Shown: piece by piece, positions 9,751 to 57,494 of the stretch
Numbering within the stretch: the stretch's first letter is position 1
Layout: every line of letters starts with the position of its first letter
Origin: a virus
DNA: 60,457 nucleotides
Reading direction: 5' to 3' (one strand)
Virus record (IMG/VR): IMGVR_UViG_3300046747_000764
Location: 1 to 60,457 of that record
The notes under the pieces: model-generated
Databases searched by the model: none
What the model was told of the DNA's origin: nothing
Seen by the model: the letters and a program-made list of their open reading frames with translations, nothing else
Position numbers and translations under genes: made by a program

Positions 9751-9755
9751 TTTCC

Positions 9756-28634: not shown

Positions 28635-28636
28635 CC

Positions 28637-31039: not shown

Positions 31040-31041
31040 TA

Positions 31042-31615: not shown

Positions 31616-31630
31616 TCGGAGCAGCGTAAA

Positions 31631-34727: not shown

Positions 34728-34903
34728 TTGGCGCTAACTTACGGATGGTCGCGGGTGTGATTCTATTTATCGGCTTAGCATACCCAGCTACGTATTTATT
34801 CCTAAGAGCAGGGGCGTATCCTGCTTGGCACTTATGGTGCCAGTTTTCTCAAGGCGACCCGGTGTGTAACTCCTTCTGGTCGTGGGTGGTGTCGTTGAAA
34901 TGA
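34724..34903 (+). CDS. Membrane microprotein between VirB7 and VirB8 (59 aa)
   Basis: MIGANLRMVAGVILFIGLAY and PATYLFLRAGAY form a hydrophobic hairpin, followed by WHLWCQFSQGDPVCNSFWSW with two Cys. It is coupled by ATGA overlaps at both ends, to virB7 and virB8. No recognised family. Confidence 0.5.
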   Translation: MIGANLRMVAGVILFIGLAYPATYLFLRAGAYPAWHLWCQFSQGDPVCNSFWSWVVSLK

Positions 34904-35598
34904 GCGACATCGTCGGCGATTTCCGCGCTCTACCAATCCTCGACCCGGAGCGCGAGCAGTACCATAAGAGCGTCCGGAGCTTTCAGGCGCACCGGGTCAT
35001 TGATACGCAGCGGCGGCTTCGCACGTGGTTCTGGATGGCCATCGGCGCCTTCGTATTGGCGGGATCTCTCGCCGGAGCCGTCGTGTTGCTGTTACCCCTA
35101 AAAACCACCGTGCCGCTATTCCTGGTGATCCGGGAGGATGGCACCGTCGACACGGGCATCTCTCTCGGAGATCTCGGCGCGAACCAGGCTCAGAAAGTGA
35201 TCCGCGCTTCGGTATGGCGCTATGTCGAGGAGCGCGAGAGCTACACCTTTTCGGACGCCAAACACCGCTATGACCTGATCAGCCTCATGTCGAACGAGAA
35301 CGTAAGGCGAGACTATCAAAGCTGGTTTGTTAATTCAGCAGACAGCCCGCAAAAGGTGTTTGGGAAAAACGGGCAGGTCTCCGTCCAGGAGATCAGCATG
35401 TCGCCAGTGCGAGACGGCGTCTTCCTGGTGCGGTTCTGGCGTTACTCGCACCTTTATGGCGAGAAGGATCGGAAGAGCAGCGCCACTGCCACGGTCGAAT
35501 ATGAGCTTCTTAATGCGGCGCCGGCGTCTCTGGTCTTAGAGGACCCGGCAGCACTTATCGTCGTCCGCTACCAGCTTGAGGAAAACACCGCCCAATGA
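34900..35598 (+). CDS. virB8: VirB8 (232 aa)
   Basis: A cytoplasmic N-terminus with RVIDTQRRLRTWFW precedes a single membrane helix (MAIGAFVLAGSLAGAVVLLL), and the periplasmic part has the NTF2-like VirB8 pattern: WRYVEERESYTFSDAKHRYD, SNENVRRDYQSWF and VRFWRYSHLYGEKD. It is an inner-membrane component linking the arch to the core. Its ATG is coupled to the preceding microprotein gene, and its stop overlaps virB9. Confidence 0.85.
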   Translation: MSDIVGDFRALPILDPEREQYHKSVRSFQAHRVIDTQRRLRTWFWMAIGAFVLAGSLAGAVVLLLPLKTTVPLFLVIREDGTVDTGISLGDLGANQAQKVIRASVWRYVEERESYTFSDAKHRYDLISLMSNENVRRDYQSWFVNSADSPQKVFGKNGQVSVQEISMSPVRDGVFLVRFWRYSHLYGEKDRKSSATATVEYELLNAAPASLVLEDPAALIVVRYQLEENTAQ

Positions 35599-36782
35599 AA
35601 TCAGCTCTTTGCATGACAGCGTTGGCGATGGTCCTGGCCTCTCCTGCGATAGCGATGCAGGAATGCACGCCCGCGAAAGAAGACGCCAGGATCAGGTATT
35701 GCAAATATAGCCCGACCCAGGTCTATCACCTATGGACCGCCCCAGGCGGAATCATGACGATCCAGTTTGCCGACAACGAAAGCGTTCCCGAAGGAAACGT
35801 GGCGGCGACAGATGGTAGTCGGCTTGAGCGCAAAGCGCGTGGCAACTTTCTTTATTTGAAATCCACATCAAAAGGCGGCGACACGCCGTGCATGATCCCG
35901 GAGCCGTTGCTGATAACCACAAAACTTCCGGACGGCCGGCTTCGCCCGTATCATTTCCAGATTGAAACAAAGCCGAACGATTGCTCCAAAACTCCCGCGG
36001 CGCGGCCACAGTCAGAGCCGCCGATATCCATGGTATCGACAGCAGACGCCGCCCCGAAACCTCCGCACGCTGGTAATCTACGGTACGTCGAAGAGAACGG
36101 TCTGGCGGCCGGGGCCGACGTTTTCTATGCGGCGATCTTCCAATACCCCGCCGATGACGCGGCAAAGCGAGCGGCGTGGGCTCGTCAGCGCGCGATAGAA
36201 GCGCAGCGGCAAGAGGCCAATCTGCTACTCAAGCAGCAAACATCCTGGCCCTACGGGAACCAGTTCGACGGCTCGTGGAACTTCCGATATGTGGCTCACG
36301 GCAGCCTATCTCCGGCACCCACGACGGTCAGAGACAACGGCTACGAGACTGTCTTCCTGTTCCCACAGATGCAGCGGGTGCCGGCGCTTTTCCGCCTACA
36401 GCCCGGCGTGACCCGGTGCAACCGCGAGCACGATGACCATAACGAGGCCACCGAAATCCCAAGCATGCACCGGAGCGGATCAGACGGCGACACGATGATA
36501 GCCACCGGGGTTGCGCAAGGATGGTGCCTGCGAGATGGCAAAACGGTGCTCGAGATCCTGAATTTCGCTTACCGACCGACCGGCGCGACACCAGCAACCG
36601 GCACGGTCTCGCCATACGTCACGCGGACACTAAAGCACGATCCGGAGCCCGAGCCTGAGCGGCCACCGCCTATGCCGCTAGAACCTCAGCACTCTCAGGA
36701 GGCGCCGCCGCCGCAGCAAGAGCCGATGCGTGTTCAACCAGCAGCCGATAGGGAAGGAGCTACACCGAGCGATGGCCGTTGA
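35595..36782 (+). CDS. virB9: VirB9 outer-core protein with long Pro-rich tail (395 aa)
   Basis: A signal peptide (MKSALCMTALAMVLASPAIA/M) is followed by YSPTQVYHLWTAPGGIMTIQ, the N-terminal VirB9 beta domain, and by NQFDGSWNFRYVAHG with YETVFLFP in the C-terminal domain that contacts VirB7. About 100 extra residues are present compared with the usual family size. They are mainly a Cys/Asp/His-containing insertion and a Pro/Glu-rich C-terminus (PEPEPERPPPMPLEP). Overlaps with virB8 and virB10 indicate coupled expression. Confidence 0.8.
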   Translation: MKSALCMTALAMVLASPAIAMQECTPAKEDARIRYCKYSPTQVYHLWTAPGGIMTIQFADNESVPEGNVAATDGSRLERKARGNFLYLKSTSKGGDTPCMIPEPLLITTKLPDGRLRPYHFQIETKPNDCSKTPAARPQSEPPISMVSTADAAPKPPHAGNLRYVEENGLAAGADVFYAAIFQYPADDAAKRAAWARQRAIEAQRQEANLLLKQQTSWPYGNQFDGSWNFRYVAHGSLSPAPTTVRDNGYETVFLFPQMQRVPALFRLQPGVTRCNREHDDHNEATEIPSMHRSGSDGDTMIATGVAQGWCLRDGKTVLEILNFAYRPTGATPATGTVSPYVTRTLKHDPEPEPERPPPMPLEPQHSQEAPPPQQEPMRVQPAADREGATPSDGR

Positions 36783-37902
36783 TCAGGACGGGATTTCTCC
36801 CGCTCGCCGCCGCCCTCCGATCACCGGTCGGCAGCGGCTCTGGATAATCCTAATAATTATGGCTGGCGTCGTGCTTGCGATCGCGATGACCGGTCTGCTG
36901 GGCTCGAAACACAAGCGGCCAGACACGACGGGGGCCCACAATTTCTCCGGCGGCATACCCTATAGCCAACCGGTAGAGGCTAAACCTGCGGTGGCCAAGG
37001 CTATGCCGCATATCGACAAACCGGCGGTGGCCAAGCAGTTGACCAACCTCGCCCCCTCCAAAGATACCGCGCTCGAAGCACCGATCTTTGCGACATCGGG
37101 GCAGGGCTATTCGGGTCGGACGGATGCTTCGAGAGCGGGAGGGGCCGGCGGAGGCAATGGTGAAAAGGACGACGAGTTCACTTCAGCGATGACCGCGTCG
37201 AGCGTAGGGGCCGCGGCAAAAGCTCACCGCATGAAACATCCGTCGCTGACGATCCCAGCGGGCGTGGTCATACCATGCAGCTTGCAAACAGCGATAAACA
37301 GCGAATTGCTCGGCTTTGTCGACTGTCAGCTTGCGTCAGCAGTGAGTAGTGCCGATGGGGCGGTCACTCTTATGGACAAGGGGACGCAGGTCATGGGGCA
37401 AATCCGCTCGGGCCTGCGACGCGGCCAGGAGCGGCTATTCATCCTCTGGGTTAGAGCCCGGACGCCGGAAAACGTGACAGTCAATTTAGCGTCGCCAGCC
37501 GCGGACGAACTCGGACGTTCTGGGGTTCCTGGCGCCGTAAACAACCATTTTGCCAAGATGTTCTGGACCGCCGCGGCATATTCCTTGATCCAATACGGCC
37601 CGCAAATGGCCACACAAGCCATCGCGAACCAGGGCCACAATGGCAGCAACAATTCGTTCAGCAACTTCGGGACATTCCTGACTCCGCAGCAGCAGCTGGC
37701 CAACACGGTACTTCAGGAAGACCTAAAAATCCCGCCAACTCTTGAGAAGAATCAGGGCGACATCGTGAGCATTTTCGTGGCGCGTGACCTCGATTTCAGC
37801 GGCGTCTTTGATCTTCAAATGGCCGGCCACTCGACCGGAACCTGCAACGATTGCCCGCTCGCAACGTGGACCACCGAGCGAGATCTGAGGAGGAATCGGT
37901 GA
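36772..37902 (+). CDS. virB10: VirB10/TrbI-type energy-coupling protein (376 aa)
   Basis: The ATG at 36772 has AAGGAG twelve bases upstream. One membrane helix (LWIILIIMAGVVLAIAMTG) spans residues ~22-40, followed by a low-complexity periplasmic linker and a C-terminal TrbI domain. That domain has AGVVIPCSLQTAINSEL, GLRRGQERLFILWVRARTP and GDIVSIFVARDLDFSGVF. This is the bridge from inner membrane to outer-membrane pore that senses ATP use by VirB11/VirD4. Length and motifs are typical. Confidence 0.88.
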   Translation: MAVDQDGISPARRRPPITGRQRLWIILIIMAGVVLAIAMTGLLGSKHKRPDTTGAHNFSGGIPYSQPVEAKPAVAKAMPHIDKPAVAKQLTNLAPSKDTALEAPIFATSGQGYSGRTDASRAGGAGGGNGEKDDEFTSAMTASSVGAAAKAHRMKHPSLTIPAGVVIPCSLQTAINSELLGFVDCQLASAVSSADGAVTLMDKGTQVMGQIRSGLRRGQERLFILWVRARTPENVTVNLASPAADELGRSGVPGAVNNHFAKMFWTAAAYSLIQYGPQMATQAIANQGHNGSNNSFSNFGTFLTPQQQLANTVLQEDLKIPPTLEKNQGDIVSIFVARDLDFSGVFDLQMAGHSTGTCNDCPLATWTTERDLRRNR

Positions 37903-38936
37903 CGAGTCCAGCCGCCCCACTCCTCGAGCACTTGCTGCAGCCGATGGCCACCTGGCTGAACGACTCGGCGGTCGAAGACATTGCCATCAACGAACCCGGT
38001 AAGGCCTGGATAAGGCACCGCGGGGCGTGGGAAGGGGTCGAGATACCGCTCGGCCTAGATGACTTGGAGGAACTCGCGATCCTGGCTGGGGCGCTCCGCA
38101 GGCAGGAAGTTGGAGTGCTGTCGCCGCTCTGCGCTACCGAGCTGCCGGGGGGCGAGCGGCTCCAAATCTGCATGCCACCAGCCGTACCGAACGGGACTAT
38201 TTCGCTGACAATCAGGGTGCACGAGCAGGATGTGGCGCCGCTATCCGACATCAATAAGCGATACCTGTCCAGCGAGTGGAACAAGTGGAACAAGCAGCGC
38301 CGTCGCCGAAACCTCTCCGAAGCGATGGCTGCGTATCGCGCTGGCGATCTCGAACAATTCCTTGACCTGGCCGTAAAGGGCCGTCTCAACGGGCTGCTGT
38401 GCGGGAGCACCGGAGCTGGCAAGACCACCCTATCGAAGACCATCGTGTCGGCTATACCGCACACCAGGCGCATCGTTACCGTAGAGGATACGCTTGAGCT
38501 AAAACTCCTTCAGCCTAACGTCGTGCGGCTACTTTACAGCAAGGACGATCTCGCAGGAACGGACATCGGAGCGGAGGACCTGGTTCAAGCAGGGATGCGC
38601 ATGAACCCCGACATTTTCCTATTGCAGGAACTCCGTGACGACGCGGCGTGGAGCTATTTGACCGCCATCTGCTCGGGACACCCAGGGTCATGGACGACGA
38701 TTCATGGGCGGGACGCGGCGGATGCGATCCGTCGTTTGAGCCTGCTCGTAAAGAGTTCGCCTGCCGGTCGCGCCCTCGAACGCGACGATCTGATTGATCT
38801 GATCTCCGCTTCGATCGACGTCATCATCCCGCTTGAGAAGGACGCTGGCGTAGTCCCGATCGTGCATGACGTTTGGTTCGTAGCCGATGCCGCGGATCGC
38901 GGTCAGACAGTGTCGGACCTGTTGATGGCGGCATGA
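37899..38936 (+). CDS. virB11: VirB11 traffic ATPase (345 aa)
   Basis: The GTG at 37899 overlaps virB10 as GTGA and has GAGGAGG close upstream. Walker A is GSTGAGKTTL near residue 168. VEDTLELKL is the Asp box, ICSGHPGSWTTIHGRDAADA is the His box region, and LLQELRDDAAWSYLTAI is the Walker B-like segment. This matches the GspE/VirB11 family, with Q in place of the commoner G in the usual GE-x-R motif. It works as a cytoplasmic hexameric ATPase switching between pilus assembly and DNA transfer. Confidence 0.9.
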   Translation: MTSPAAPLLEHLLQPMATWLNDSAVEDIAINEPGKAWIRHRGAWEGVEIPLGLDDLEELAILAGALRRQEVGVLSPLCATELPGGERLQICMPPAVPNGTISLTIRVHEQDVAPLSDINKRYLSSEWNKWNKQRRRRNLSEAMAAYRAGDLEQFLDLAVKGRLNGLLCGSTGAGKTTLSKTIVSAIPHTRRIVTVEDTLELKLLQPNVVRLLYSKDDLAGTDIGAEDLVQAGMRMNPDIFLLQELRDDAAWSYLTAICSGHPGSWTTIHGRDAADAIRRLSLLVKSSPAGRALERDDLIDLISASIDVIIPLEKDAGVVPIVHDVWFVADAADRGQTVSDLLMAA

Positions 38937-38939
38937 TAT

Positions 38940-40814
38940 ATGCCCTATGCCCGACCTCTAATCCTTCTCGTCTCCCCGTTTTTTATCGCCATAGCCTGGC
39001 TTCTGTGCGCATCAGAAGTCTGGAGCACAGGCACCGACACCCCGTTCTCGGTGTGGGCCTGGTGGGACGCGCTTGATTGGTGGGCAGACGACTGGTGGGT
39101 CACGCTATGGATCGCTCTCGGGGCGTTCATACCGACGATATTTCTGTGTCTATTCCTGGCGGGGACGGTCCAATGGCTACGCCTCCGCGGCCGCGTGCAG
39201 CGCCGGATGACCGGCAGAGGCACGCAAGTCAGCACCTGGGGAAGGCGGCGATACGATGCGGTGCCGGAAATCATACCGGCCGCGCCGGCTCTCACGGACA
39301 ACCACGGGCACAGCTACTGGCGAACCATGCAGGAGGTGCAAAAGCGATTCGATGGACCTGTTCTACCGCATGGCGGCATAGCCGCCGGCGAGGCTTACAG
39401 GGTCGATCATGATCGGTCGGTCGCGGGCATAGAGTTCGATCCGAGGAACCAAGCCACCTGGGGATTGGGTGGCAAAGCGCCCCTCCTTATCGATTCGTGC
39501 ACCAGGGGTGCGCGGGCGTTCCATGCGTGTGAATTCGGTCCCACCGGGTCCGGCAAGAGCGCCGAATTGGTCACGAAGATCCTCGGGTGGACCGGGGCGG
39601 CGGTGGTCTTTGACCCCACTATAGAGATCGGCCCTCTGCTTGATCGGGCTCTACGACGGCGCGGGAGAAATTGGCGGGTCTTTCACATTGGCCTTCCCAA
39701 TTCAGGAAAGCCTATCCGAATGACCGGGTATAACATCCTGTCGTGGATCGACATCAACCATCCGGACGCGGAACTGCACGTGAGAGGAATAGCTCACACG
39801 ATCTATGACGAGACCTCTGGGGAGAAGGATGGTAGAGCAGAGGCCCGGGCAGACGATCCATTTTTTGGTCCTATGGGACGATTGCTCGTTAGCTGCTTGC
39901 TCGGTCATCTCGTGTGGCAAGACCCAGACAAAATCGAGATCAGTCTAGCCACCTTTGTCGCGCTGATGACCGTCCCGGAGGACGATATGATGGCGCTCCT
40001 GAATTCAATCCGAGCCCAGAGTCCAAGCGGAATGGCACGCCGATTGGCTGGCACCATCATGGGAACGAGAGCCGCCGAAACGTTCTCTGGGATCTATTTA
40101 AACGCCGTAAAGGGTGTAGAGTGGCTAATATTTTCCAGCGCTTATGCCGACCTCTTGTCGGTAGGAGAATTCGATCCGCGGTTCCTGCTTATCGGTAACT
40201 GCACGACCTTTCTCAACATTGATGAGCGCTCGATTAAGTTGGCGCCGGTCCTTCCGCGAGTGATCTTCAACGGCATCCTGAACACGATCTTTATGGCCGA
40301 GGGGCATTCGCATGGGCTGATCGCGCTCTTTATCGACGAGGCCGACACGCTACGATATTTCCCGCCGCTCCTTACAGCGCGCGACAGAGGGCGGCATTAC
40401 AAAATCGTGTTGCACATGCTGTGGCAATCGATCGGCCAGATGCGAACCATCTGGGGAATGGAGCAAACGCGGGCGTGGCTCGACGCGTTCTCGTGGGTCG
40501 GGTTCTCTGGAATACGAGCCGCTAGCGCCGGCAAAGATCTGTCGACTGAACTCGGAAGCCATGGCGTTCTGGCGTACAGCGAAGGCGTAAACCAGGGCCA
40601 GCAGCAGCCGTTTGGACTATCATTCGGCACCTTCTCGCGCGGTCAAAACGTCAACACGCACGAGATTAAGCGTGCCCTCATCACCGCCTCAGAGATGCAG
40701 CAAGACCTCCGCGCCGACGAAAAAATCATCGTCCCGGACACCGGTTTGCCGATTCGTTGCGGCCGATGCCCGTGGTTCCGTAGAGAAGAATTTGTTGAGA
40801 TGGTGGAGCAGTAA
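38940..40814 (+). CDS. virD4: VirD4/TraG-type coupling protein (624 aa)
   Basis: Two N-terminal membrane segments (LILLVSPFFIAIAWLL and WIALGAFIPTIFLCLFL) are followed by the coupling-protein ATPase. Walker A is GPTGSGKSAEL near residue 200, then VFDPTIEIGPLL, IFMAEGHSHGLIALFIDEAD (Walker B) and LHMLWQSIGQMRTIWG. This protein brings the relaxosome to the channel. Its presence argues for DNA transfer and not only protein secretion. It starts 3 bases after virB11. Confidence 0.9.
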   Translation: MPYARPLILLVSPFFIAIAWLLCASEVWSTGTDTPFSVWAWWDALDWWADDWWVTLWIALGAFIPTIFLCLFLAGTVQWLRLRGRVQRRMTGRGTQVSTWGRRRYDAVPEIIPAAPALTDNHGHSYWRTMQEVQKRFDGPVLPHGGIAAGEAYRVDHDRSVAGIEFDPRNQATWGLGGKAPLLIDSCTRGARAFHACEFGPTGSGKSAELVTKILGWTGAAVVFDPTIEIGPLLDRALRRRGRNWRVFHIGLPNSGKPIRMTGYNILSWIDINHPDAELHVRGIAHTIYDETSGEKDGRAEARADDPFFGPMGRLLVSCLLGHLVWQDPDKIEISLATFVALMTVPEDDMMALLNSIRAQSPSGMARRLAGTIMGTRAAETFSGIYLNAVKGVEWLIFSSAYADLLSVGEFDPRFLLIGNCTTFLNIDERSIKLAPVLPRVIFNGILNTIFMAEGHSHGLIALFIDEADTLRYFPPLLTARDRGRHYKIVLHMLWQSIGQMRTIWGMEQTRAWLDAFSWVGFSGIRAASAGKDLSTELGSHGVLAYSEGVNQGQQQPFGLSFGTFSRGQNVNTHEIKRALITASEMQQDLRADEKIIVPDTGLPIRCGRCPWFRREEFVEMVEQ

Positions 40815-40832
40815 CCCTGGCTGGAGGAAGTT

Positions 40833-41036
40833 ATGACGGATGAACACGCTACTCGCATCGCACACGCGCTTGAGAACATCGCCAGCGCGCTAGAGACCAT
40901 CGCGTTCCAGCTTAACGATGATGGAGCGATCGGCGAGGCGATCGGCAGGATCGTCGAGGTGTTCGAAGCGGTTGCGCCGGAGGGCGAGCGTAACAGTTAT
41001 CGGTATCTGAGAACGCTAGATATCGGCCGCGACTGA
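40833..41036 (+). CDS. Small helical accessory protein (67 aa)
   Basis: A strong GGAGG ribosome site precedes the ATG by 6 bases. The product is amphipathic helix (IAHALENIASALETIAFQL) followed by EAIGRIVEVFEAVAPEGERN. Small helical proteins between the coupling protein and relaxase are often relaxosome accessory factors, but no ribbon-helix-helix motif is clear. Role not established. Confidence 0.5.
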   Translation: MTDEHATRIAHALENIASALETIAFQLNDDGAIGEAIGRIVEVFEAVAPEGERNSYRYLRTLDIGRD

Positions 41037-41061
41037 AACCCCGAGGCAGGAGAAACGACCC

Positions 41062-41280
41062 ATGGCGAGGAGTAAATCAGGAGGAGCAGACCCTGTTCCG
41101 CAGGCGAGGCAAGACCTCCGCCAGACCCAGCAGACCAGGCAGGAAAGATCAGCCGCGTGGGTGCAGCAACAAGTCAACGAAGGCTACGGGATCATGCAAT
41201 CCCGCGCTGAGCAGCTCGGGCAGACGCAAGCTCCACAGCAAAACGCCACCAACCGACCACGTCAACCCCGGCAGTCATAA
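41062..41280 (+). CDS. Gln/Arg-rich small protein (72 aa)
   Basis: Preceded by GCAGGAG. The product is rich in Gln, Arg and Ala (RQDLRQTQQTRQERSAAWV, then ENAT-like Asn/Arg end) and probably mostly helical, lacking membrane segments. It may be a nucleic-acid-binding accessory factor. No family is recognised. Confidence 0.45.
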   Translation: MARSKSGGADPVPQARQDLRQTQQTRQERSAAWVQQQVNEGYGIMQSRAEQLGQTQAPQQNATNRPRQPRQS

Positions 41281-41406
41281 CCCGTACGGTTGCGCCGCTT
41301 TTGGAAAAAGCTGCAATGGAATATCAGTCCCTAAAACCGGCGTTTGGGACGGTCTCATCCGGACCAAGGCTGGCACCCTTGTTCGCGTATACGTTGGGAG
41401 GATCGG
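41281..41406. other. Candidate oriT region upstream of relaxase genes
   Basis: This 126-base gap between small genes holds an 8-base palindrome CCGTACGG (41282-41289). It also holds an imperfect hairpin with GTCCC/GGGAC arms (41327-41350) around AAAACCGG. It is AT-richer than its surroundings and close to the relaxase gene. These are features expected of oriT, but no known nic consensus is recognised. A simple leader is equally possible. Confidence 0.3.
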
Positions 41407-41703
41407 ATGGTGGCGCTGAAGGGTCGAGATTACGGTTGGGTGCCGTTCTTGCGTAAGGTGGAAACGACGGATGAGCTGCGGCGGGCGCTCGATGAGATGC
41501 TGGCCGAAGGAGAGAACGCCGACCTAGCGGACACGTATATTGTGCGCGTCTGTGAGGTGGCTCTCGATCCCGGGCCGAGAGAGGGCTTAGGCGACCCGGT
41601 CCTGCTGATCGATCGCTGCGTGAGCATCAGACCGATTAGGGAGCCCGTGCCGACCTGGCAGGAGATCTTACGACGTGGCGATCCGGATAGAGACGAGCGA
41701 TGA
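41407..41703 (+). CDS. Hypothetical protein (98 aa)
   Basis: The ATG at 41407 is preceded by GGGAGG, favouring it over an upstream ATG inside the candidate oriT. The product has VALKGRDYGWVPFLRKVETT, an acidic DEMLAEGENADLADTY and a VLLIDRCVSIRPIREP strand. No recognised domain. It is in the relaxase operon by spacing. Confidence 0.5.
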   Translation: MVALKGRDYGWVPFLRKVETTDELRRALDEMLAEGENADLADTYIVRVCEVALDPGPREGLGDPVLLIDRCVSIRPIREPVPTWQEILRRGDPDRDER

Positions 41704-41876
41704 GGAAGATCATCCAGATCGCCTCCGCAGGTGACCGGCTGTTCTCTCTGTGTGACGACGGGTCCGTGTGGCAGTACCTGTGGAGCAGGGAGAATTGCCG
41801 GGGGTTTGGTTGGTGGGTGCAACTTGAGTGTGTGCCTGAGCCGCCCCAGGACGATCCGATCGCGGGGTTGATCTGA
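41700..41876 (+). CDS. Hypothetical small protein (58 aa)
   Basis: Coupled to the previous gene by an ATGA overlap. The sequence MRKIIQIASAGDRLFSLCDD followed by SVWQYLWSRENCRGFGWWVQ looks like a small Trp-rich beta-hairpin domain. It ends 20 bases before the relaxase. Function unknown. Confidence 0.45.
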   Translation: MRKIIQIASAGDRLFSLCDDGSVWQYLWSRENCRGFGWWVQLECVPEPPQDDPIAGLI

Positions 41877-41896
41877 GACGCCATGGTCGTCCGGCG

Positions 41897-44800
41897 ATGA
41901 TGACGTTCCGGGCAGGCTCGGTCGGCTCGTCGACGGTCAGCTCGGCAGTCGCGGAGTACTACTTAACAGACACTGTACAATCGGAGACGATGCGGGCGGC
42001 CGAGTACTACGCGGGCCGCGAAGAACGGGCGGATAGTTTCTGGCGGGCCGAGGTGATGGACGGTCGGCTAGAGATGGGGCAACACCGGGCCGAGCTGCGA
42101 GCGGATCTATCGCCAGAGATGATCGCGCGGCTTGGCTTGAACGGGAGCATGGGGCCGGCGTTCACGCTGCCGCTGACGCAAGAGCGGGTCGCCAATCTGC
42201 TGAGCCTGAGACAGGCGGATGGAAGCGCGGTCGAGGGGCGGCAAATACACCGGGCGACGGCCGAGGGGAAGAAGCCTCCCACAGGGTTCATCGACCTGAC
42301 GTTCTCGGCGAGTAAGTCGCTCTCGGTCGCGTGGGGGTTGGCGGCCGATCCTCGCGAGCGAGAACAGCTTATCGGGATACACCGGGCGGCGGTCGAGAAG
42401 ACGATGTCCTATGTGGCGGAGGAGATTGGTTTCACCCGGCGTGGTGGATCGCGACGAAGCCGAACGGAGCCCGGTGAGATCGCGTGGCTAGGCTTCCAGC
42501 ATTACACATCGAGGCCGGTCGATAAGCAGGCCGCGGACCCGAACCTGCACACCCACGTCATCGTGTTGAATGATGTGATGACCGAGAACGGTCACATGGG
42601 CGCGATCGATCTGGCGCGGCTGAACGGTAGGATCAAAGAATTCGGCGCGGTTTACGAGGCATATGTGGGGGCCGAGGCGCGCAAGCTTGGTGTGGCGGTG
42701 CAGTTCGACGAACGCCGCGAGACGGTCCAGCTGTCGGACATCCCGGAGCACATCAACGAGGTGTTCAGCAAGCGCTCCCAGCAAGTAGAGGAGGCGGCGA
42801 AGGATCTTTCCAGCAAGATGGGGCTGGAATGGGAAACCCTGAACGAGGAGCGTCGATCCGGGATAAGCCGTAGAGCGGTAATTCTGAGCCGGCAATCGAA
42901 GGATGGCGAGAGGAACGACTTCGGTTCCTGGTCACGCCAGGCGGATGAGGCCGGCTACCGGTATGAGAGCGTGCTCGGTCGTGTCGAGACGGTAGAAGCA
43001 CCGTTGCCCATACCGGAGCCGGAGCCGATTGATGATCTGTCGAAGCAGTTGGTGGAGGCGATCACGACCGCGCTTCGGTACAGCGATCCGGAGACGCAGG
43101 CAGATCGTCTGATCTGGGAGGTTGACCAGATCATGCGGGACCACAAAGCGTCGGGCGATCCGACACCGCGCTTGGCACAGGATCTCATGCGCGGGATCAC
43201 CGCGACCCTATCGGCACAATCGGCAACGGAACCGGAGGCGCGGCTGATCGCGGCAACCGGCGAGGCGATAGAGCAGCACGCCGAACGGGGGCGGGCCAGG
43301 CAGGAGCGGATAGCAGCTGACACGGCGCGACAGCGCGCGGCCTATGAGACGGCGCTGCCGCGGCTGCAGGAAGAGTTTCGTCGGCGGTCGGTGCTCGATG
43401 GGAACGAACTCAGGCGCGTAGCGGCACAGGCCCTCGTCACGTCCGGGATCAAGGACGCTGGGCTCGACCTCGACGCAATCATGGGATTATTTCGGCGAGA
43501 CGGCGTCGATCATGAGGGCCAGAGAGCACCGTTGGTCACACAGGAGCTGAGTGTGCGCGGTGTGATGCGGGAGCGGGTTACGACCGGCCTTCACGTCGCT
43601 CAGGAGCGGGAGGTGATTCGCCTGGCCGCGGCTGCGGCCGCAGATGGGTCAGGAGCGATGTCCGAAGCGAAGATAGATCTTGCGGCCCGCGTATTCCTGT
43701 CCGCTCATCCGGAAATAGATGGAGCTGGCGAGCATTGGCAGGCTCAACGGCGGATGATGGACCACCTTGCGACCGGTGGCCGGCTTGGGGTGGTGATCGG
43801 TGTCCCCGGGTCGGGAAAGAGCTTCGCACTGTCGCCCCTGGTGCAGGCGTGGAAGGACGATGGGCGATCTATCTATGGGATCTCGCTAGCGTGGCGGCAA
43901 GCCGGCGATCTGGAAGCGGCCGGCATCACCGAGCGAGCGTCGATCGCGGCGTTCCTGAAACGGGTTGAAACGGGTCGATACGAGTTGGATCGGAACAGCG
44001 TGGTCGTGGTGGATGAGGTAGGGCTGGTCGGCTCGCGGCAGATGCTGGAGCTGCTCCGAATCCAGGAACGGACGGGAGCGCAATTTGTCATGGTCGGCGA
44101 TCCGCGGCAGGCCCAGCCGATCGAAGGCGCGGCCGGTCTCGAGCTGCTACGAGCCGCGCTAGGCGATGAGGCGATCCCGCGGTTGCTGTACTCGACCCGA
44201 CAACACAGCGAGCGCGAGCGGGAGATCGCTGCACTGTTCCGGCGGGGCCAGGCAGCGGAGGCGCTGGAGATGAAACAGGAGGACGGCACGGCGTTCCTGG
44301 TGCCGGGCGGTCGGGAGGCGACGGTCGTTCGAGTAGCGGAGCTGTGGCGCGAGCGCATGGAGGCGAATCGGGGCACGCGGGATTTTACGTTGAGCGTGTC
44401 GACGCCGACGAATGCCGACGCGAGGGAGATCGGCGCGGCGATTCGAGTCGAGCTGCGGCGGGCCGGTCAGCTTGGAGCGGATGTACAGACCATGCGGGCG
44501 ATCGACCGCACCGGGGAGACCTACGACATATCCCTGGCGATCGGCGAGCGCCTGCGGCTGTTCGACCGAGTGTGGGATCGCGCCCTGCATCAGGCGATAG
44601 CGAACAATGGCGACGTGGTCGAGCTGCGTTCGCTACGGCCGGACGGGATGGTGGTGCGCAACGCCAGCGGGACGGAAGGTCTGGTGGAGTGGGACAAGAT
44701 CAGGACGCACCCTGAGGCCCCTGTGAGGCTCGCCCATGGGTATGCTTTGACGGTGGACACCGCACAAGGGAGCACCGCGACCGAGCACATCCACGCGCTT

Positions 44801-45037
44801 CCCTCGGGCTCCCAGGATACGCATGGGTTCAAGGCCTACGTCGCGGCCACACGCCACCGAGAGCAAAACTGGATCGTGATCGATGAGGCATCGGAGCGGG
44901 GCCAACTCGACGAACGGCGCATGATCGGTCATCACGTCGAAGTGCAAGCGCCGGATATCTGGCAGAACGTGGCGAAGAATGTCGCGCGGCAGCCGGTCAA
45001 GGCGCCGGCGATCTCGGTGTTGCGCAAGAGCGCATGA
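41897..45037 (+). CDS. MobF (TrwC-type) relaxase-helicase (1,046 aa)
   Basis: The N-terminal relaxase domain has paired tyrosines (AEYYLTD at 19-25 and AAEYYAGREE at 34-43). A His triad follows, H202 in GFQHYTSRP and H218/H220 in ADPNLHTHVIVLND. FIDLTFSASKSLSVAWGLA is the TrwC hallmark. The C-terminal SF1 helicase has Walker A GVPGSGKSFAL near 635, VVVDEVGLVGSRQM and DTAQGSTATEH. This enzyme nicks one strand at oriT, stays linked to it and unwinds it for transfer. It is intact and is the last plus-strand gene of the module. Confidence 0.92.
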   Translation: MMTFRAGSVGSSTVSSAVAEYYLTDTVQSETMRAAEYYAGREERADSFWRAEVMDGRLEMGQHRAELRADLSPEMIARLGLNGSMGPAFTLPLTQERVANLLSLRQADGSAVEGRQIHRATAEGKKPPTGFIDLTFSASKSLSVAWGLAADPREREQLIGIHRAAVEKTMSYVAEEIGFTRRGGSRRSRTEPGEIAWLGFQHYTSRPVDKQAADPNLHTHVIVLNDVMTENGHMGAIDLARLNGRIKEFGAVYEAYVGAEARKLGVAVQFDERRETVQLSDIPEHINEVFSKRSQQVEEAAKDLSSKMGLEWETLNEERRSGISRRAVILSRQSKDGERNDFGSWSRQADEAGYRYESVLGRVETVEAPLPIPEPEPIDDLSKQLVEAITTALRYSDPETQADRLIWEVDQIMRDHKASGDPTPRLAQDLMRGITATLSAQSATEPEARLIAATGEAIEQHAERGRARQERIAADTARQRAAYETALPRLQEEFRRRSVLDGNELRRVAAQALVTSGIKDAGLDLDAIMGLFRRDGVDHEGQRAPLVTQELSVRGVMRERVTTGLHVAQEREVIRLAAAAAADGSGAMSEAKIDLAARVFLSAHPEIDGAGEHWQAQRRMMDHLATGGRLGVVIGVPGSGKSFALSPLVQAWKDDGRSIYGISLAWRQAGDLEAAGITERASIAAFLKRVETGRYELDRNSVVVVDEVGLVGSRQMLELLRIQERTGAQFVMVGDPRQAQPIEGAAGLELLRAALGDEAIPRLLYSTRQHSEREREIAALFRRGQAAEALEMKQEDGTAFLVPGGREATVVRVAELWRERMEANRGTRDFTLSVSTPTNADAREIGAAIRVELRRAGQLGADVQTMRAIDRTGETYDISLAIGERLRLFDRVWDRALHQAIANNGDVVELRSLRPDGMVVRNASGTEGLVEWDKIRTHPEAPVRLAHGYALTVDTAQGSTATEHIHALPSGSQDTHGFKAYVAATRHREQNWIVIDEASERGQLDERRMIGHHVEVQAPDIWQNVAKNVARQPVKAPAISVLRKSA

Positions 45038-45686: not shown

Positions 45687-45914
45687 CTAGCTCGAAGAGG
45701 CGCCCTTGCGGCGCTCACGAGCGAGGATGCGGCTAACCTGGCTCTGGTGAATGCCGAAGATCTGGCCGATCTGCTCTTGTGTATGGTTCCCTTCCGCGTG
45801 GATTCGTCTGATGTCTGAGATGTCGCTATCCGTCATCTCGGGGACATGCGGATTAAAGAAAGACCAGACCCTGGATAGGAAGCTCACGGCTGTTTCCTCT
45901 GCTGGTTTTCCCAC
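45687..45914 (-). CDS. Small HTH protein overlapping terminase 3' end (75 aa)
   Basis: The C-terminal half is a helix-turn-helix: DISDIRRIHAEGNHTQEQIG followed by IFGIHQSQVSRILARERR, similar to resolvase or sigma-region-4-type HTHs. The longest start overlaps the terminase stop by 31 bases; an alternative ATG at 45836 would leave just the HTH. It may regulate late genes or bind the packaging site. Confidence 0.55.
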   Translation of the reverse strand: MGKPAEETAVSFLSRVWSFFNPHVPEMTDSDISDIRRIHAEGNHTQEQIGQIFGIHQSQVSRILARERRKGASSS

Positions 45915-47374
45915 TCGACAGAACCTGGTGCGTAGAGCGGGGTCGGTGCGGGCGGCACATTCGCCTCGGCCAACTTGCGGGCCTGCTCGCGGTAGAGCTC
46001 GAAGATCCCGGAATTTGACATCGGCTCGACGAGGAGGTCAGTTAGGGCCCAAATCAAACTGTCCGCATTATCGGGTGACCGATCGCCCAAATATCCCGCG
46101 GTCGAGAAATTGAGCATCTGATCCTCGAGCTGAGGAAATTGCCCAGCGTGCCGTACCTGGTCTTTGTGCCAGACGCCGTCTCGCTCGTAGCCGTAGAGAG
46201 CCGAGACCGGTTCGGCGCGGATGGCCTTGCCGCGCGACGCGGTCACCACCTGCACCGGCACATTGGGGTCGACCGTGTGCAGGAGGGCGCGCACCATATC
46301 GCCGCCGTAGTTCTGCTCAGCGACGATGCGGTCGGCTTTGAACTCTTTATAGGCGGTGACGGCGACGCGCGCCCAGCCTTCAGGGGCCAGGTTGCACGTC
46401 CGATCGGCCAGCACATACGCCATGTTGTCCGTGGCTAAGCCAACGACCACGATGCCGATGTTGTCGGATCTCTCGTCTTCGTCACCCCGGGTGCCCGATG
46501 GGTCGACGGCGACGACAACTCGCTTGAGCGTGGCCGGCACATCTTCTGGCAGGCAACGCGCGTGCTCGATGGACTCGAATGTCCAGAGCGCCCCGTCGAC
46601 TTCGGTTTGATAAGCGCCAACGAAGAACCGTTTGCGTTGTCGCTCTGGCAACGCATCGAGTTCCGCAAGCATTTCGGACGTGAGATTCTCGGCGTTGTCA
46701 CCGGGATTGATGTAATCGTAGCGATACTGTTCTGGATTGCTGGTCGGTTGCAGCGTGACTGGATCGCGCCCCTGCACAAACCGGACATGGCTCCAATGGC
46801 GAGTGCCAACCGGGTTGAGGTCGTAATAGGCGCGCTGAATTAAGGCGGGGTGTTTCTCTGCTAACCGGGTTAATGCGATCGTGAGTGATGAGTATGGGAT
46901 CTGAGAGCACTCGTTGAAATACAACGTGCTGAACTCTTGCCCCAAGATTTTCTCGACGCGTTCCTTCTCGTCTAATCCGCTTATCCAGATCTGCGATCGG
47001 CCTGGGTAGACCTCGACATAGCCGTCGCTACGCTTGTCGATGAGCGTGGCGTCGGGATAGCATAACCGCAGCGCTTTAGGCAGCGTGTCGAGCCAAATCG
47101 AGGCTCTTGCAGCGTTGGCGCGGAATCGCAGGATGGCGTGGCGAGAACCCGGCGCTAAAAGCGCCCTGGTTAGAACGGCATAGCAAAAGAGGTAAGTTTT
47201 CCCTGATCGCGCGCCGCCGTACAACAGGGTGTGGCGCTGAGGACCGGCCAACAAATGAAGCGCCGCGAGTTGTTTGGGATTAGAGGCGCGAGAAGGATCT
47301 TTGGCAGATTCAAAGCCGAGCGGAATCACCGGTGATTGCGATGACGATGGGCTCGCCGCCTTTCTTGCCTTCAT
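45884..47374 (-). CDS. terL: Phage terminase large subunit (496 aa)
   Basis: Walker A is YGGARSGKT (residues ~52-60) and Walker B/catalytic Glu is STLYFNECSQI (E155). The C-terminal nuclease has D291 in VAVDPSG, E353 in IVAEQNYGGD and D435/D438 in SPDNADSLIWAL, all acidic residues of the RNase-H-like nuclease being present. The protein pumps DNA into the capsid and cuts it. Its start overlaps the small subunit gene by 65 bases; a shorter start is possible. An intact motor suggests real packaging capacity. Confidence 0.92.
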   Translation of the reverse strand: MKARKAASPSSSQSPVIPLGFESAKDPSRASNPKQLAALHLLAGPQRHTLLYGGARSGKTYLFCYAVLTRALLAPGSRHAILRFRANAARASIWLDTLPKALRLCYPDATLIDKRSDGYVEVYPGRSQIWISGLDEKERVEKILGQEFSTLYFNECSQIPYSSLTIALTRLAEKHPALIQRAYYDLNPVGTRHWSHVRFVQGRDPVTLQPTSNPEQYRYDYINPGDNAENLTSEMLAELDALPERQRKRFFVGAYQTEVDGALWTFESIEHARCLPEDVPATLKRVVVAVDPSGTRGDEDERSDNIGIVVVGLATDNMAYVLADRTCNLAPEGWARVAVTAYKEFKADRIVAEQNYGGDMVRALLHTVDPNVPVQVVTASRGKAIRAEPVSALYGYERDGVWHKDQVRHAGQFPQLEDQMLNFSTAGYLGDRSPDNADSLIWALTDLLVEPMSNSGIFELYREQARKLAEANVPPAPTPLYAPGSVEWENQQRKQP

Positions 47375-50928: not shown

Positions 50929-51104
50929 TTAGTGTCGTGCTGGTTGGGGAGCTTCGCCTGGGCCTTTTGCATTTTGGTAAGCAGAGCGATACCGCGGCGC
51001 AGCGCAGCGCGGGAATCGTCCCAGGTTAGCAAGCTGCGGGCGAGCAGCGCGGTGCGCCGAGCCAACCCATCAATGGTCGGTGTGTCGTCGGTTTTGATGT
51101 CCAT
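50925..51104 (-). CDS. Hypothetical small helical protein (59 aa)
   Basis: The product MDIKTDDTPTIDGLARRTAL followed by LLTWDDSRAALRRGIALLTK is helical. It is coupled at both ends (TAATG after the recombinase, GTGA before the GcrA-like gene), making a three-gene operon. No recognised motif. Confidence 0.5.
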   Translation of the reverse strand: MDIKTDDTPTIDGLARRTALLARSLLTWDDSRAALRRGIALLTKMQKAQAKLPNQHDTK

Positions 51105-51838
51105 TAAATGCCTGATCTGGCGATAATCCTGCGGACCTGGGTGCTGTTCCAGGTGATGCGTCTAGATGGCGTTTCGATGCCGCGCGCCGTAAGTGCCCTG
51201 GCGATCTTGCCTAGAGTGCAGCAGCCGGCCTCACGAGCTTCCTGGATGTACAACATCACATCAGCTGCGTGCTCTTCAGCCTTTGCCGACCGCGCCTTTC
51301 GAGCGGATCGAGCATCGCCGAAGCGGTCGCCTTTGCGTAGATTAGGATTGCCGAGTTTCGTGATGGACTTGCCAGAGCGGCGAGAAATCCACTGCCCGGT
51401 AGCTTCGATAGCGGCCTTAACGACAGCTAGAGCAGCCTTGGTGCGCTCCGATACGGCGGTTGCTTCGTATTCGGCGAACACGGCCATCATCTGAACGAGC
51501 ATTTTGGTGGCGTGAGGATTGTCACAGGCCACGAAATCGACGCCAGACTCCATAAGCCCAGAGACAAAGTGAACGTTCCTGGCTAAGCGATCCAGCTTGG
51601 CAATCACCAAGGTCGCTCGCCTAAGCCGGCACGCGCCTAGAGCGGCGATCAGCTGGGGCCGCCGCCGCTTGTTTGTGCCGGTCTCTATCTCCGTGAACTC
51701 AGCCACAACAGTCCCGCCCTGAGCGGCGACATAGCGAGCCACAGCTTCCCTCTGGGCTTCGAGCCCAAGGCCGCTGTCGCCCTGTTTATCCGTACTCACG
51801 CGAAAATATAGGGCAAACCTCGGCGCAGAGCCTGGCAT
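51104..51838 (-). CDS. Serine recombinase, resolvase/invertase type (244 aa)
   Basis: The catalytic domain reads ALYFRVSTDKQGDSGLGLEA (catalytic Ser in RVS), VIAKLDRLARN and MMAVFAEYEATAVSERTKAA. It is followed by a C-terminal HTH-like region (LGKIARALTARGIETPSRRI). The length is that of a small serine resolvase, not a large serine integrase. An upstream in-frame ATG (51871) would add 11 residues. A perfect 7-base inverted repeat just upstream is a candidate res or operator site. It could resolve multimers of a plasmid-like form or invert a segment. Confidence 0.85.
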   Translation of the reverse strand: MPGSAPRFALYFRVSTDKQGDSGLGLEAQREAVARYVAAQGGTVVAEFTEIETGTNKRRRPQLIAALGACRLRRATLVIAKLDRLARNVHFVSGLMESGVDFVACDNPHATKMLVQMMAVFAEYEATAVSERTKAALAVVKAAIEATGQWISRRSGKSITKLGNPNLRKGDRFGDARSARKARSAKAEEHAADVMLYIQEAREAGCCTLGKIARALTARGIETPSRRITWNSTQVRRIIARSGI

Positions 51839-51896
51839 GCCCGAGGCCCGCAACCGGGCGTCGCGGGCCATCGTGGGGGCATGTCATCCTAAAATG

Positions 51897-55033: not shown

Positions 55034-55246
55034 TCATGGGCGCAGGAAATCCCGCGCGACGCGCTTGGCCGCCGTGTCCCTCAGCGCCGAGCGCTGCCGC
55101 GACAGCGCAGCCCGCGCCACGCCTAGTCGCGGCTCGTGCGATTTGCCGTCGGCGCGCCTACACGCCTCGCCCGGCACCGCACCGCACGTAGGACACGCCA
55201 CGGCGAGAATCTCGGCCCGCGACGGGTGGGTGAAGGTGTGTTTCAT
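55034..55246 (-). CDS. Zinc-finger phage protein (70 aa)
   Basis: The motif ACPTCGAVPGEACRRADGKS followed by EPRLGVARAALSRQ is a common phage and bacterial zinc-ribbon (C-P-x-C-G-A-x-P-G-x-x-C). It is coupled to pyrF by an ATGA overlap. It probably binds DNA or another phage protein. Confidence 0.65.
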   Translation of the reverse strand: MKHTFTHPSRAEILAVACPTCGAVPGEACRRADGKSHEPRLGVARAALSRQRSALRDTAAKRVARDFLRP

Positions 55247-55887
55247 GACGTCGGGTCTCCGCTCAACACTTCCATAAAGCCCGCTGCAGCGGAAACAGGA
55301 TCAGCCGATAAATAAATCGGTCGTCCCACTACAGCGTGGGTGGCACCAGCCACTCGGCACTCCCGCGGAGTGATCGGCCGAAAGTGGCCGTCGCTACCAG
55401 TGACACCTTCCCAGCGGACACCAGGTACAACAACGTCCATCGATTCCCAGAAGCCCATCGCCATGTATCCCGGGACAATGACGCCATGCACGCCGGCCGG
55501 CCTGATCGGCCGCTCGTCGGGTCTCGCCGGGGGGTCTTTGTCGCTCGGCCAAAGCCATTGCCAGATCTTTATCCGCCCGTCGGCGGCTTCGAGCGCCACC
55601 TTCGTCGCATCCAACCCGCACGTCGACACCGCAGCAATGCGAGCACCGGCGAATCGTTTCACAGCCTCTCGCACGGTGTGCTCGGTATCGCTGAGTTTGA
55701 TGTCGAGGAAAATATTGGGGTGTGGAGTTGCTGCTGCTAGCTCGGAGGTGAAATAGGGCCAGTCGTCGCTGCACATCAACAGCGGGCCGATTTTGAGCCA
55801 GCTGACGCCAGCATCGATGAGCGAGCACGCGAGGGCGTATTGGTCTTGGTCCTCCGGGCCGTCCAGCGCGACCACCAGCTCTGTCAT
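55243..55887 (-). CDS. pyrF: Orotidine 5'-phosphate decarboxylase-like enzyme (214 aa)
   Basis: The TIM-barrel markers are VVALDGPEDQDQYALACSLI, SWLKIGPLL, FLDIKLSDTEHTV (the D-x-K-x-x-D catalytic cluster), VVPGVRW and ITPRECRVAGATHAVVGRPI with the phosphate-binding Gly-Arg near the C-terminus. OMP decarboxylase makes UMP in pyrimidine synthesis. The last D-E-N-T-like segment is SDTEHT here in place of the usual HDIPNT, so substrate or rate may differ. It abuts HU directly (TGAATG). A metabolic gene of this type is rare in phages. Confidence 0.75.
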   Translation of the reverse strand: MTELVVALDGPEDQDQYALACSLIDAGVSWLKIGPLLMCSDDWPYFTSELAAATPHPNIFLDIKLSDTEHTVREAVKRFAGARIAAVSTCGLDATKVALEAADGRIKIWQWLWPSDKDPPARPDERPIRPAGVHGVIVPGYMAMGFWESMDVVVPGVRWEGVTGSDGHFRPITPRECRVAGATHAVVGRPIYLSADPVSAAAGFMEVLSGDPTS

Positions 55888-56199
55888 TCAGGCACTCCGG
55901 CGCCGCGGCACGCTCGGCGGCGGGTTGAGTGCGGCCTTCAGAGCCTTGGCCGGCACGAACTTAGCTGCGTCTTTAGCAGGCACCTTGATCGGCTCCCCGG
56001 TTTTCGGGTTGCGCCTATCCGCGGCGCCGCGGTGGACGACCTTGAACGTGCCGAAGCCGGGGATCCGGATCTCCGAGCGTTGGATAAGCCCGTTGGCCAG
56101 TCCGCAGAAGACGGCGTCGACGGCGCTTTCCGCGGCTGCCGTTTTCATCTCGGTTATGATGGCGACTTGGCGCACGAGGTCTTTTTGGGAGATGGTCAT
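55888..56199 (-). CDS. HU/IHF-family DNA-binding protein (103 aa)
   Basis: The family pattern is complete: SQKDLVRQVAIITEMKTAAA, DAVFCGLANGLIQRSEIRIP, GFGTFKVVHRGAADRRNPKT (the beta arm with GFGTF and RNPKTGE) and a basic C-terminal tail. It bends or packages DNA. It lies between the replication and pyrF genes and could help origin opening or virion DNA packing. Confidence 0.88.
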   Translation of the reverse strand: MTISQKDLVRQVAIITEMKTAAAESAVDAVFCGLANGLIQRSEIRIPGFGTFKVVHRGAADRRNPKTGEPIKVPAKDAAKFVPAKALKAALNPPPSVPRRRSA

Positions 56200-56206
56200 G
56201 TCGATT

Positions 56207-56812
56207 TCACTCCTGGTTCATCGCTAATCCCAACTCAGCGGCAGCCCGCCGTAGTTCTTCCGGGTCTTCGTGCTTTGGTATTTTACGCTCGGTAGCCGAG
56301 ACGCCAAGCGCGGCGTGCATTTCCTGGATCTCTCGACCGGTCATTCGCGAGGGCGCCCGGTATGGTGTGCGTGATCTACTGACGAACAGATCAACGTTGG
56401 CCGCGTGCTGCTGCCCGCAGAGAGCCATGAATGTCAGCATCTCCGGAGTGGGGTCGCCATTTTGCTTCCGCTCTCCGTGAACCTGCACCTGCAGCCTGAG
56501 CTGAGCACGCTCGTCATCCTGCTTGCGGAAATGCGCCGCCAGTTCTCGGTTGGGTTCGACGTCGGCGCGAGAGGTCGACAGTGCAAACGGCGGGCGAGGC
56601 TTCGCATAGATGCTCTCAGCAGCCTGTACCAGGCCTTCGTCGAACCACTTGCCATGCTGGTCCAACGCATAACCAGCGTCCTGCGGGTCACCGCGGGATC
56701 GCAGGAAAGCGTAGTCATACGCGTGGTAATGCCAGCGCTCGGTATTAGTGAGGCCGGCCCACGCGAACTGGGAATCCTTCAATTTTTGGCGCAGGTTCTG
56801 TAGGTCCGTCAT
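56207..56812 (-). CDS. Hypothetical replication-module protein (201 aa)
   Basis: The ATG at 56812 lies inside the end of the replication gene (68-base overlap). The product has TDLQNLRQKLKDSQFAWAGL, TERWHYHAYDYAFLRSRG and long charged helices (FRKQDDERAQLRLQVQVHGE). The position after a DUF1376/O-like gene is that of helicase loaders, but no P-loop is visible, so the role remains open. Confidence 0.45.
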   Translation of the reverse strand: MTDLQNLRQKLKDSQFAWAGLTNTERWHYHAYDYAFLRSRGDPQDAGYALDQHGKWFDEGLVQAAESIYAKPRPPFALSTSRADVEPNRELAAHFRKQDDERAQLRLQVQVHGERKQNGDPTPEMLTFMALCGQQHAANVDLFVSRSRTPYRAPSRMTGREIQEMHAALGVSATERKIPKHEDPEELRRAAAELGLAMNQE

Positions 56813-57494
56813 AGAAGGAAAGGTCGTGGCCGTTGGGCTTGGTGGTCGGTTCGACAGTTGGTGCCCGGGCGGTTCGGCACCAGTTCCGCCATGTGGCTTC
56901 CCAGTCCAGTTTGCATCCATCCTTGCCAGCCTTTGCGTGCCAGTAATCGACGAAGTGGTTCGCTTGCGAATCCAGGTTGATGGGGGACAAACCATCGGCG
57001 TTGCGAATTTCGGCCCCCTTGTCCTTCCACTCCTGCGGAACCTTAAAGTCAGCAGGCAGCCGCGAAGCGCGGCGCTGTGGCGACTCTTGTATTGGTTCTT
57101 GGTTTATTATTGGTTCTTGGTTTAGTTTAACGCGCGTACCATTGCTGGGCGCATCGCCTAAGGGATTGATATTCCAGCGTTTAGCTGCTCGTTCTTGACC
57201 AGTTATTGACCGTTTATGAGCCCGTTCTAGCTCAGTTATGACCCGGTTATTACCCAGTTGTGACCCAGTTAGAGTCAACTTATGACCCACTAACAGCTCA
57301 GTTATGACCCTCTTAATCCGGTTTCGCTTCGCCTTGACGATGCGGAAAAGGCGCTCATCGTCAACCGGTATGGGACCTCCGGTTGAGGCGATGAGATCGC
57401 ACACCGTGCGATAAATGCCATTTTGCTCGGGCGTAAGTCCTGCGACGCCGACGAGCCATTCGTCTGGATGATGTTCAATGTATCGTACCTTCAT
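56745..57494 (-). CDS. DUF1376-type replication initiation protein (249 aa)
   Basis: The N-terminal domain (MKVRYIEHHPDEWLVGVAGL, then GIYRTVCDLIASTGGPIPVD and LFRIVKAKRNRIKRVI) matches DUF1376, common in phage O-like replication proteins. The middle is encoded by the iteron-like DNA repeats. The C-terminus has WKDKGAEIRNADGLSPINLD and WHAKAGKDGCKLDWEATWRN with W-R-N-W-C-R, typical of phage replication proteins that load helicase. It probably binds the origin within its own gene. Confidence 0.7.
   Translation of the reverse strand: MKVRYIEHHPDEWLVGVAGLTPEQNGIYRTVCDLIASTGGPIPVDDERLFRIVKAKRNRIKRVITELLVGHKLTLTGSQLGNNRVITELERAHKRSITGQERAAKRWNINPLGDAPSNGTRVKLNQEPIINQEPIQESPQRRASRLPADFKVPQEWKDKGAEIRNADGLSPINLDSQANHFVDYWHAKAGKDGCKLDWEATWRNWCRTARAPTVEPTTKPNGHDLSFYDGPTEPAPKIEGFPVRVGRPH
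57191..57310. repeat. Iteron-like 11-base repeats, candidate replication origin
   Basis: The plus-strand unit AGTTATGACCC recurs with variants: GTTCTTGACC (57191), AGTTATTGACC (57201), GTTTATGAGCCC (57212), AGTTATGACCC (57234), GGTTATTACCC (57245), AGTTGTGACCC (57256), ACTTATGACCC (57278) and AGTTATGACCC (57300). Three are exactly contiguous at one helical turn. Repeats inside the replication-protein gene recall the lambda O/ori arrangement. Confidence 0.65.

Follow-up and report, generated by a model that had tools for sequence, protein, structure and literature searches.

A probable replication origin inside the gene for a DUF1376-domain phage protein, and its counterparts across the family

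The 60,457-bp stretch analysed here (the window; an IMG/VR virus record of the class linear) carries a gene for a 249-residue protein with an N-terminal DUF1376 domain, and inside this gene lie an array of 11-bp iterons and an AT-rich array built of heptamers. We read this feature as a replication origin that the phage carries inside its own initiator gene, a reading to which we give a probability of roughly 0.86 on the grounds of sequence comparison. More generally, it is very probable that DUF1376 genes across the family each contain a replication origin. In the mechanism that we propose, the winged-helix domains of the DUF1376 protein would sit next to one another on the 11-bp iterons, along a single face of the helix, and the iteron-bound complex would strain and melt the adjoining AT-rich heptamer array, whose low stability and position are observed. 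One strand of the heptamers would then be bound as single strand, by analogy with TrfA and RepE (PMC4081077), while the C-terminal domain, which differs from one family to another, would bring the replicative helicase, either directly or via a lambda P-like or DnaC-like loader. Comparison shows that both iterons and heptamers are selected as DNA and not as protein.

Repeats and protein in the window

On the coding (minus) strand the iteron unit is GGGTCATAACT, the reverse complement of AGTTATGACCC, and its copies follow one another at steps of 22, 22, 11, 11, 22 and 11 bp (Table 1), falling, in order, in reading frames 1, 2, 0, 2, 1, 2 and 1, that is, in all three. An earlier note on this DNA had counted about eight copies in 120 bases; the repeats are real, but they come to seven good copies, and the empty 11-bp slots hold degenerate ones. 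The three contiguous copies at exactly 11 bases that it described are those of 57234-57266, and its placement of the repeats within the coding region of a replication protein holds for all seven, in strict 11-bp phase inside the DUF1376 gene. The array occupies nucleotides 184-294 of the gene and overlaps the 3' part of the sequence encoding the DUF1376 domain, between about 137 and 49 nt before the domain ends, which is earlier than usual, the iterons of most relatives being in the linker. It is detected both by Tandem Repeats Finder and by a repeat finder. Under a null of 1000 synonymous-codon shuffles, in which protein and codon usage are preserved, the score of the gene over lags of 11, 22, 33 and 44 (0.659) was reached by none of the trials (mean 0.462, maximum 0.586, z 6.2), and the gene holds 39 exact 7-mer pairs versus 11.5 +/- 4.7 after shuffling (maximum 32). 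Matches to the unit with at most two mismatches number ten in the window, with 8.4 expected over 60 kb, and five of the ten fall inside a 77-bp span of the array. In L002, the closest viral relative (58% protein identity), these repeats recur in register.

Table 1. Features of the putative origin and its surroundings (window coordinates)
Feature	Position	Strand	Basis or remarks
Initiator gene: DUF1376 N-terminal domain, linker, C-terminal domain	56745..57494	minus	Pfam, PHROG
DUF1376 domain, predicted winged helix	57228..57482	minus	AlphaFold2, structural matches
Iteron array, seven 11-bp units GGGTCATAACT on one 11-bp grid, 110 bp	57201..57310	minus	positions, shuffle null, repeat finders
Iteron GGGTCATAACT	57300..57310	minus	0 mismatches
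Iteron GGGTCATAAGT	57278..57288	minus	1 mismatch
Iteron GGGTCACAACT	57256..57266	minus	1 mismatch
Iteron GGGTAATAACC	57245..57255	minus	2 mismatches
Iteron GGGTCATAACT	57234..57244	minus	0 mismatches
Iteron GGCTCATAAAC	57212..57222	minus	3 mismatches
Iteron GGTCAATAACT	57201..57211	minus	3 mismatches
Putative DNA unwinding element, two 18-bp repeats (57090-57124) of AACCAAG-type heptamers	57090..57130	minus	TRF, stability
C-terminal domain, helices 163-210	56847..57122	minus	phrog_3992 over residues 125-216; relatives' DnaT domain or neighbours
HU-like DNA-binding protein gene, downstream of the initiator gene	55888..56199	minus	PF00216, E=3e-23

About 75 bp downstream of the iterons lies a pair of AT-rich 18-bp repeats that the earlier note did not list. 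They resemble AAACCAAGAACCAATA on the coding strand and are returned by TRF as 18 bp x 1.9 at 100%; in terms of nearest-neighbour stability, the 40 bp starting at 57090 are the least stable of the 60,417 positions of the window. In the window the heptamers lie in the linker between the N- and C-terminal domains, and heptamer arrays encode repeated heptapeptides (NQEPRTK, KPEARSQ). They stand in a single fixed orientation relative to the initiator gene, in a zone that is A/C-rich and T-poor on the coding strand. This composition would also suit a constraint on the mRNA, such as a C-rich, unstructured rut-like or antitermination site, but the RNA folds no better than shuffles (z -0.7 for both parts), no Rfam family scores above its gathering threshold, and the 11-bp phasing with its multiples fits binding to a DNA duplex, for which reasons we hold an mRNA site to be very improbable indeed. 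As for other marks of an origin, no DnaA boxes were found near the array, and the GC-skew analysis that had been proposed as a check proved unhelpful: the cumulative skew rises to about 55 kb, where it peaks rather than reaching a minimum, and declines thereafter within genes that share one orientation, its sign being opposite to that of a simple bidirectional origin.

The N-terminal part of the protein matches DUF1376 (PF07120, E=3.8e-11 in a Pfam scan; 43.7 bits versus a gathering score of 30.1), which is its only Pfam match at E up to 0.01, and the C-terminal part resembles phage primosomal and replication-initiation proteins (phrog_3992, 9327, 1408 and 1032). An AlphaFold2 model built from 59 sequences has a block with pLDDT 88-97 over residues 11-110, comprising helices at 22-38, 46-53 and 57-69, a two-strand wing (74-76 and 79-81) and a long helix (83-109), followed by a low-confidence linker and a helical C-terminal domain. 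With VIA-align, winged-helix proteins, including CRP and LexA, match residues 18-88 at Z 8-9. Entries 4pql (8.9), 4pt7 (8.7), 5kbj (8.5) and 4pta (8.1), solved plasmid initiators of the RepA_N type, align over 73 residues and are tied with CRP and other winged-helix proteins, so that these scores support the fold and not kinship. Foldseek gives weak E-values (best 6e-3), and no convincing sequence relative of the protein was found in the PDB. The DUF1376 domain is predicted to be a winged helix.

Several regulators in the PDB share this predicted fold, and direct repeats bound by a winged-helix protein would fit a role in regulation, in which the repeats would be operators or autoregulatory sites for the DUF1376 protein or for a phage repressor, blocking transcription of the gene or operon, with no origin involved. 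Nonetheless, the array is found 184-294 nt into the gene and not at its start, it goes together with the least stable stretch of the window and with heptamers that keep one orientation, and the annotation by homology is primosomal or replication initiation, with relatives that swap modules with lambda P-type loaders. A purely regulatory array is therefore decidedly unlikely in our judgement.

Turning to the partners of the putative initiator, its C-terminal domain would have the role of recruiting the helicase or a helicase loader; this is suggested by gene order and module exchange, since the relatives have either a DnaT domain or lambda P, DnaB or YdaV as neighbours. Beside the DUF1376 gene of the window itself, no helicase, loader or lambda P-like gene was recognised. 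The HU-like protein encoded downstream (Table 1) might act as an accessory factor. The replication region also holds a gene of the orotidine 5'-phosphate decarboxylase / HUMPS family (55243-55887, minus strand), possibly an auxiliary metabolic gene.

Repeats and selection across DUF1376 genes

To what extent is this architecture a property of the family? Among 138 DUF1376 gene clusters defined at 70% identity, which are partly dependent by ancestry, 47 contain near-exact repeats at lag 11, with 3.8 expected from shuffling synonymous codons, and 24 genes contain repeats at lag 22, versus 2.7 expected. Lags 33 and 44 form peaks too, and the heptamers give rise to an excess at lags 7 and 14. Control ORFs from the same contigs show lag 11 in 4 of 642 cases, which is the chance level. 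Membership was assigned by an in-house family profile iterated on these loci, and the confirmation by Pfam, which covers the scanned representatives, comes from an alignment (A4) of the window protein and 80 cluster representatives already passing that profile, all 81 of which match PF07120. Iterons could be called in 74 of the 138 clusters, with clade-specific units (e.g., CCGTTCAACGG, AATCAGATCTG and CAACGGACGTT), and where both elements were called, the iterons start upstream of the heptamers in 52 of 54 genes. The heptamer units vary too (AACCAAG, AAGCCAG, ACCAGAT, CAACAAT), as do the encoded peptides, which are unrelated between clades that have the 7-nt periodicity in common. In the relatives the duplex is least stable between +60 and +120 nt past the domain.

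The clearest case is the Sinorhizobium phage phiLM21, in which the sequence GATTCAACGGACGTTCAACGGACGTTCAACGGGCGTTCAACCAAGCCAGAAGCCAGAAGCCAGAAGCCAGAAGC comprises 11-bp iterons and, immediately after them, AAGCCAG heptamers; the heptamer part is also found in the Shewanella X14 and Thalassomonas BA3 phages. The Acinetobacter phage AbP2 has heptamers in a 'primosomal protein' gene followed by DnaB; its match to the family profile falls at the C-terminus of the protein and it was left out of the count. With simple profiles, and with many loci incomplete, a helicase or loader was seen beside the DUF1376 gene in 32 of 137 clusters. The 18-mer AACCAAGAACCAAGAACC is present in at least 120 viral stretches of IMG/VR, and 104 of the 120 listed have it inside a DUF1376-like ORF, at a median of 23 residues after the domain among the viral matches listed. 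As a marker of DUF1376 in cellular genomes the 18-mer fails, being in a DUF1376 ORF in one of 120 stretches; it is common elsewhere in many bacterial genomes, and the other 119 stretches, with Bacteroidota, Chloroflexota, Planctomycetota and Verrucomicrobiota among the titles, have it outside DUF1376 genes.

The strongest evidence that the iteron and heptamer region is selected as nucleic acid comes from the synonymous sites. Between the window and L002, codons for identical residues differ synonymously in 30 of 54 cases over codons 1-60 and in 7 of 31 over codons 61-100, where amino-acid changes are commoner than in codons 1-60. In the family, the synonymous differences go from 0.51 in the domain down to 0.18, 0.10 and 0.17 in three successive bins of 30 nt that cover +30 to +120 after the domain, and back to 0.34-0.44 thereafter, the amino-acid differences in those same bins being 0.33-0.54. 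The drop is seen in 33 of 35 disjoint pairs (Wilcoxon P=3e-10) when the loci are those found by protein similarity alone, and in 71 of 77 pairs when all loci are taken and the 18-mer is masked where it had been used for finding them, the pairs again being partly dependent by ancestry. With synonymous sites frozen while amino acids vary, the object of selection is the DNA. The contrary reading, a linker repeat kept for its peptide, could invoke the repeated heptapeptides into which the heptamer arrays translate; it is contradicted by the freezing of synonymous sites with amino acids free to vary, and also by the iterons' use of all three frames and by the constant 7-nt periodicity behind unrelated peptides in different clades, and we have rejected it as having next to no probability. 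An argument from the frames of the heptamers, which differ between the window and L002, was dropped, because a 7-nt repeat gives one heptapeptide in all frames.

Taken as a whole, DUF1376 proteins would seem rather likely to form a large unrecognised class of phage initiators, whose genes contain a standard two-part origin, made of face-phased 11-bp iterons that differ by clade and a strand-specific heptanucleotide tandem array for unwinding and loading, and in which the origin travels with the N-terminal domain and is joined to different pairs of C-terminal domain and loader. No paper linking DUF1376 to a 'replication origin' was found in the literature searched, although for the one case of Rac oriJ an earlier account may exist; in the literature that names DUF1376 together with replication, as far as consulted, the domain is mentioned in passing only.

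Module exchange and known initiators

In E. coli K-12, ydaU of the Rac prophage, at 1421119-1421976 of NC_000913.3, is a DUF1376 gene (2.7e-26). It contains repeats of a TGTTCAAACA-type unit spaced by 12 and 33 bp (P=0.02), fewer and weaker than those of the window, and the least stable 40 bp of the gene come right after them. Some part of ydaU is held by 1492 of 5426 complete E. coli genomes, the matches being full-length, restricted to nt ~45-506 or restricted to nt ~485-858. K-12 ydaU and the gene of UC4316 have the N-terminal domain and the repeat region in common up to about nt 506 and diverge from there: UC4316 continues with a DnaT-type C-terminal domain and then a lambda P-type gene (PF06992), whereas K-12 has a different C-terminal domain and then YdaV, a protein with matches to the IstB and DnaA ATPase models. 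The reciprocal chimera is found in EC17CM7, where an N-terminal domain without any Pfam match is joined to the C-terminal domain of K-12, followed by YdaV. The joint of the E. coli chimeras is the AT-rich stretch after the repeats, and in the viral set the surroundings of the heptamer array are where N-side alignments stop and C-side ones start. This exchange of half-genes indicates that the N-terminal domain with the repeats makes up one cassette and the C-terminal domain with the loader another, an arrangement that, judging from the sequences, is the one expected of an initiator carrying its own origin.

The same breakpoints, both in the viral alignments and in the E. coli chimeras, could also mean that the heptamers form a hot spot of recombination for exchanging initiator halves, with the iterons being incidental. 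That would leave the 11-bp iterons, the minimum of duplex stability and the strand bias unexplained, and we find it distinctly improbable as an alternative to an origin; the array may, for its part, have roles in both recombination and unwinding.

Origins lying inside initiator genes are already known from lambda and from the RepA_N plasmids. In ori-lambda, iterons and then an AT-rich tract are located in the middle of gene O (PMC7466680). The window likewise has both elements inside an initiator gene, and in some DUF1376 relatives the gene next door is that of a loader, as in UC4316 (PF06992) and Shewanella X14 (annotated); the lambda-like embedding that the earlier note had proposed is strongly supported by comparative evidence, to which the least stable, AT-rich array downstream now adds. 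However, the N-terminal domain of the window protein matches DUF1376 and not the O model (a few distant DUF1376 relatives do match O-like PHROGs). Lambda iterons are longer than 11 bp, unlike the units of the window, which stand on an unbroken 11-bp grid next to an AT-rich part built of heptamers.

RepA_N proteins such as pSK41 Rep comprise a winged-helix N-terminal domain, a linker encoded by the origin and a variable C-terminal domain, with the Rep boxes centrally within rep (PMC5703833). The DUF1376 protein has the same three parts, with a predicted winged helix and a linker encoded by the putative origin, and by sequence position the family constraint (+30 to +120 nt after the domain) also falls between the N- and C-terminal domains. 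It differs in that the window protein has no match to PF06970 in the Pfam scan, in its occurrence in phages and not in plasmids of Gram-positive bacteria, in the heptamer array and in the 11-bp phasing. Because it matches neither of the two Pfam models, it is filed here under neither lambda O nor RepA_N, and finding the same plan in such a family suggests a recurrent solution for linking an initiator to its own binding sites.

In the RK2 (TrfA) and F (RepE) systems, iterons adjoin an unwinding element made of repeats, one strand of which is bound (PMC4081077). The DUF1376 iterons also adjoin a repeat array, with heptamers in one orientation relative to the initiator gene, but they lie inside that gene and the repeats are 7-mers instead of 13-mers, while binding of the single strand is put forward here by analogy only. 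Lastly, an active origin, oriJ, has been reported for the Rac prophage (PMC3945230), and its comparison with ydaU is made at the level of the prophage.

If the origin reading is right, it would provide a testable function for DUF1376, a domain that occurs in many phages as well as in Rac, the prophage of E. coli K-12, and phage origins could be located by a sequence rule. With its 7-bp period, the heptamer array would amount to a portable element for unwinding, and the cassette structure would explain the mosaicism of DUF1376 genes.

Replicative state and the rest of the record

The earlier note had seen in the repeats a possible origin for a plasmid-like state. That specific role did not find support: the same architecture is present in ordinary phages such as phiLM21, and the feature is hence best read as the vegetative origin of the phage. 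An extrachromosomal, plasmid-like form is nevertheless plausible, as the window includes a conjugation module with a relaxase (28535-45037, plus strand), composed of VirB4, VirB5, VirB6/TrbL, VirB8, VirB9, VirB10, VirB11, VirD4 and a 1046-residue TrwC relaxase-helicase. It is unusual for a phage record to have a type IV conjugation set so close to complete; the module sits between the portal gene (23655-25253) and the gene of the terminase large subunit (45884-47374), on the other strand, and the combination of conjugation module and phage genes could also stem from two elements fused by misassembly. As regards conjugation genes in relatives, no relative came up when viral contigs were searched for VirB8. 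There are no tRNA genes in the window. Elsewhere, the record has an open frame of 3246 residues (241-9981, minus strand), after which come frames of 448 (9756-11102) and 1498 residues (11260-15756) without Pfam or PHROG match, and a serine resolvase/invertase gene (51104-51871, minus strand).
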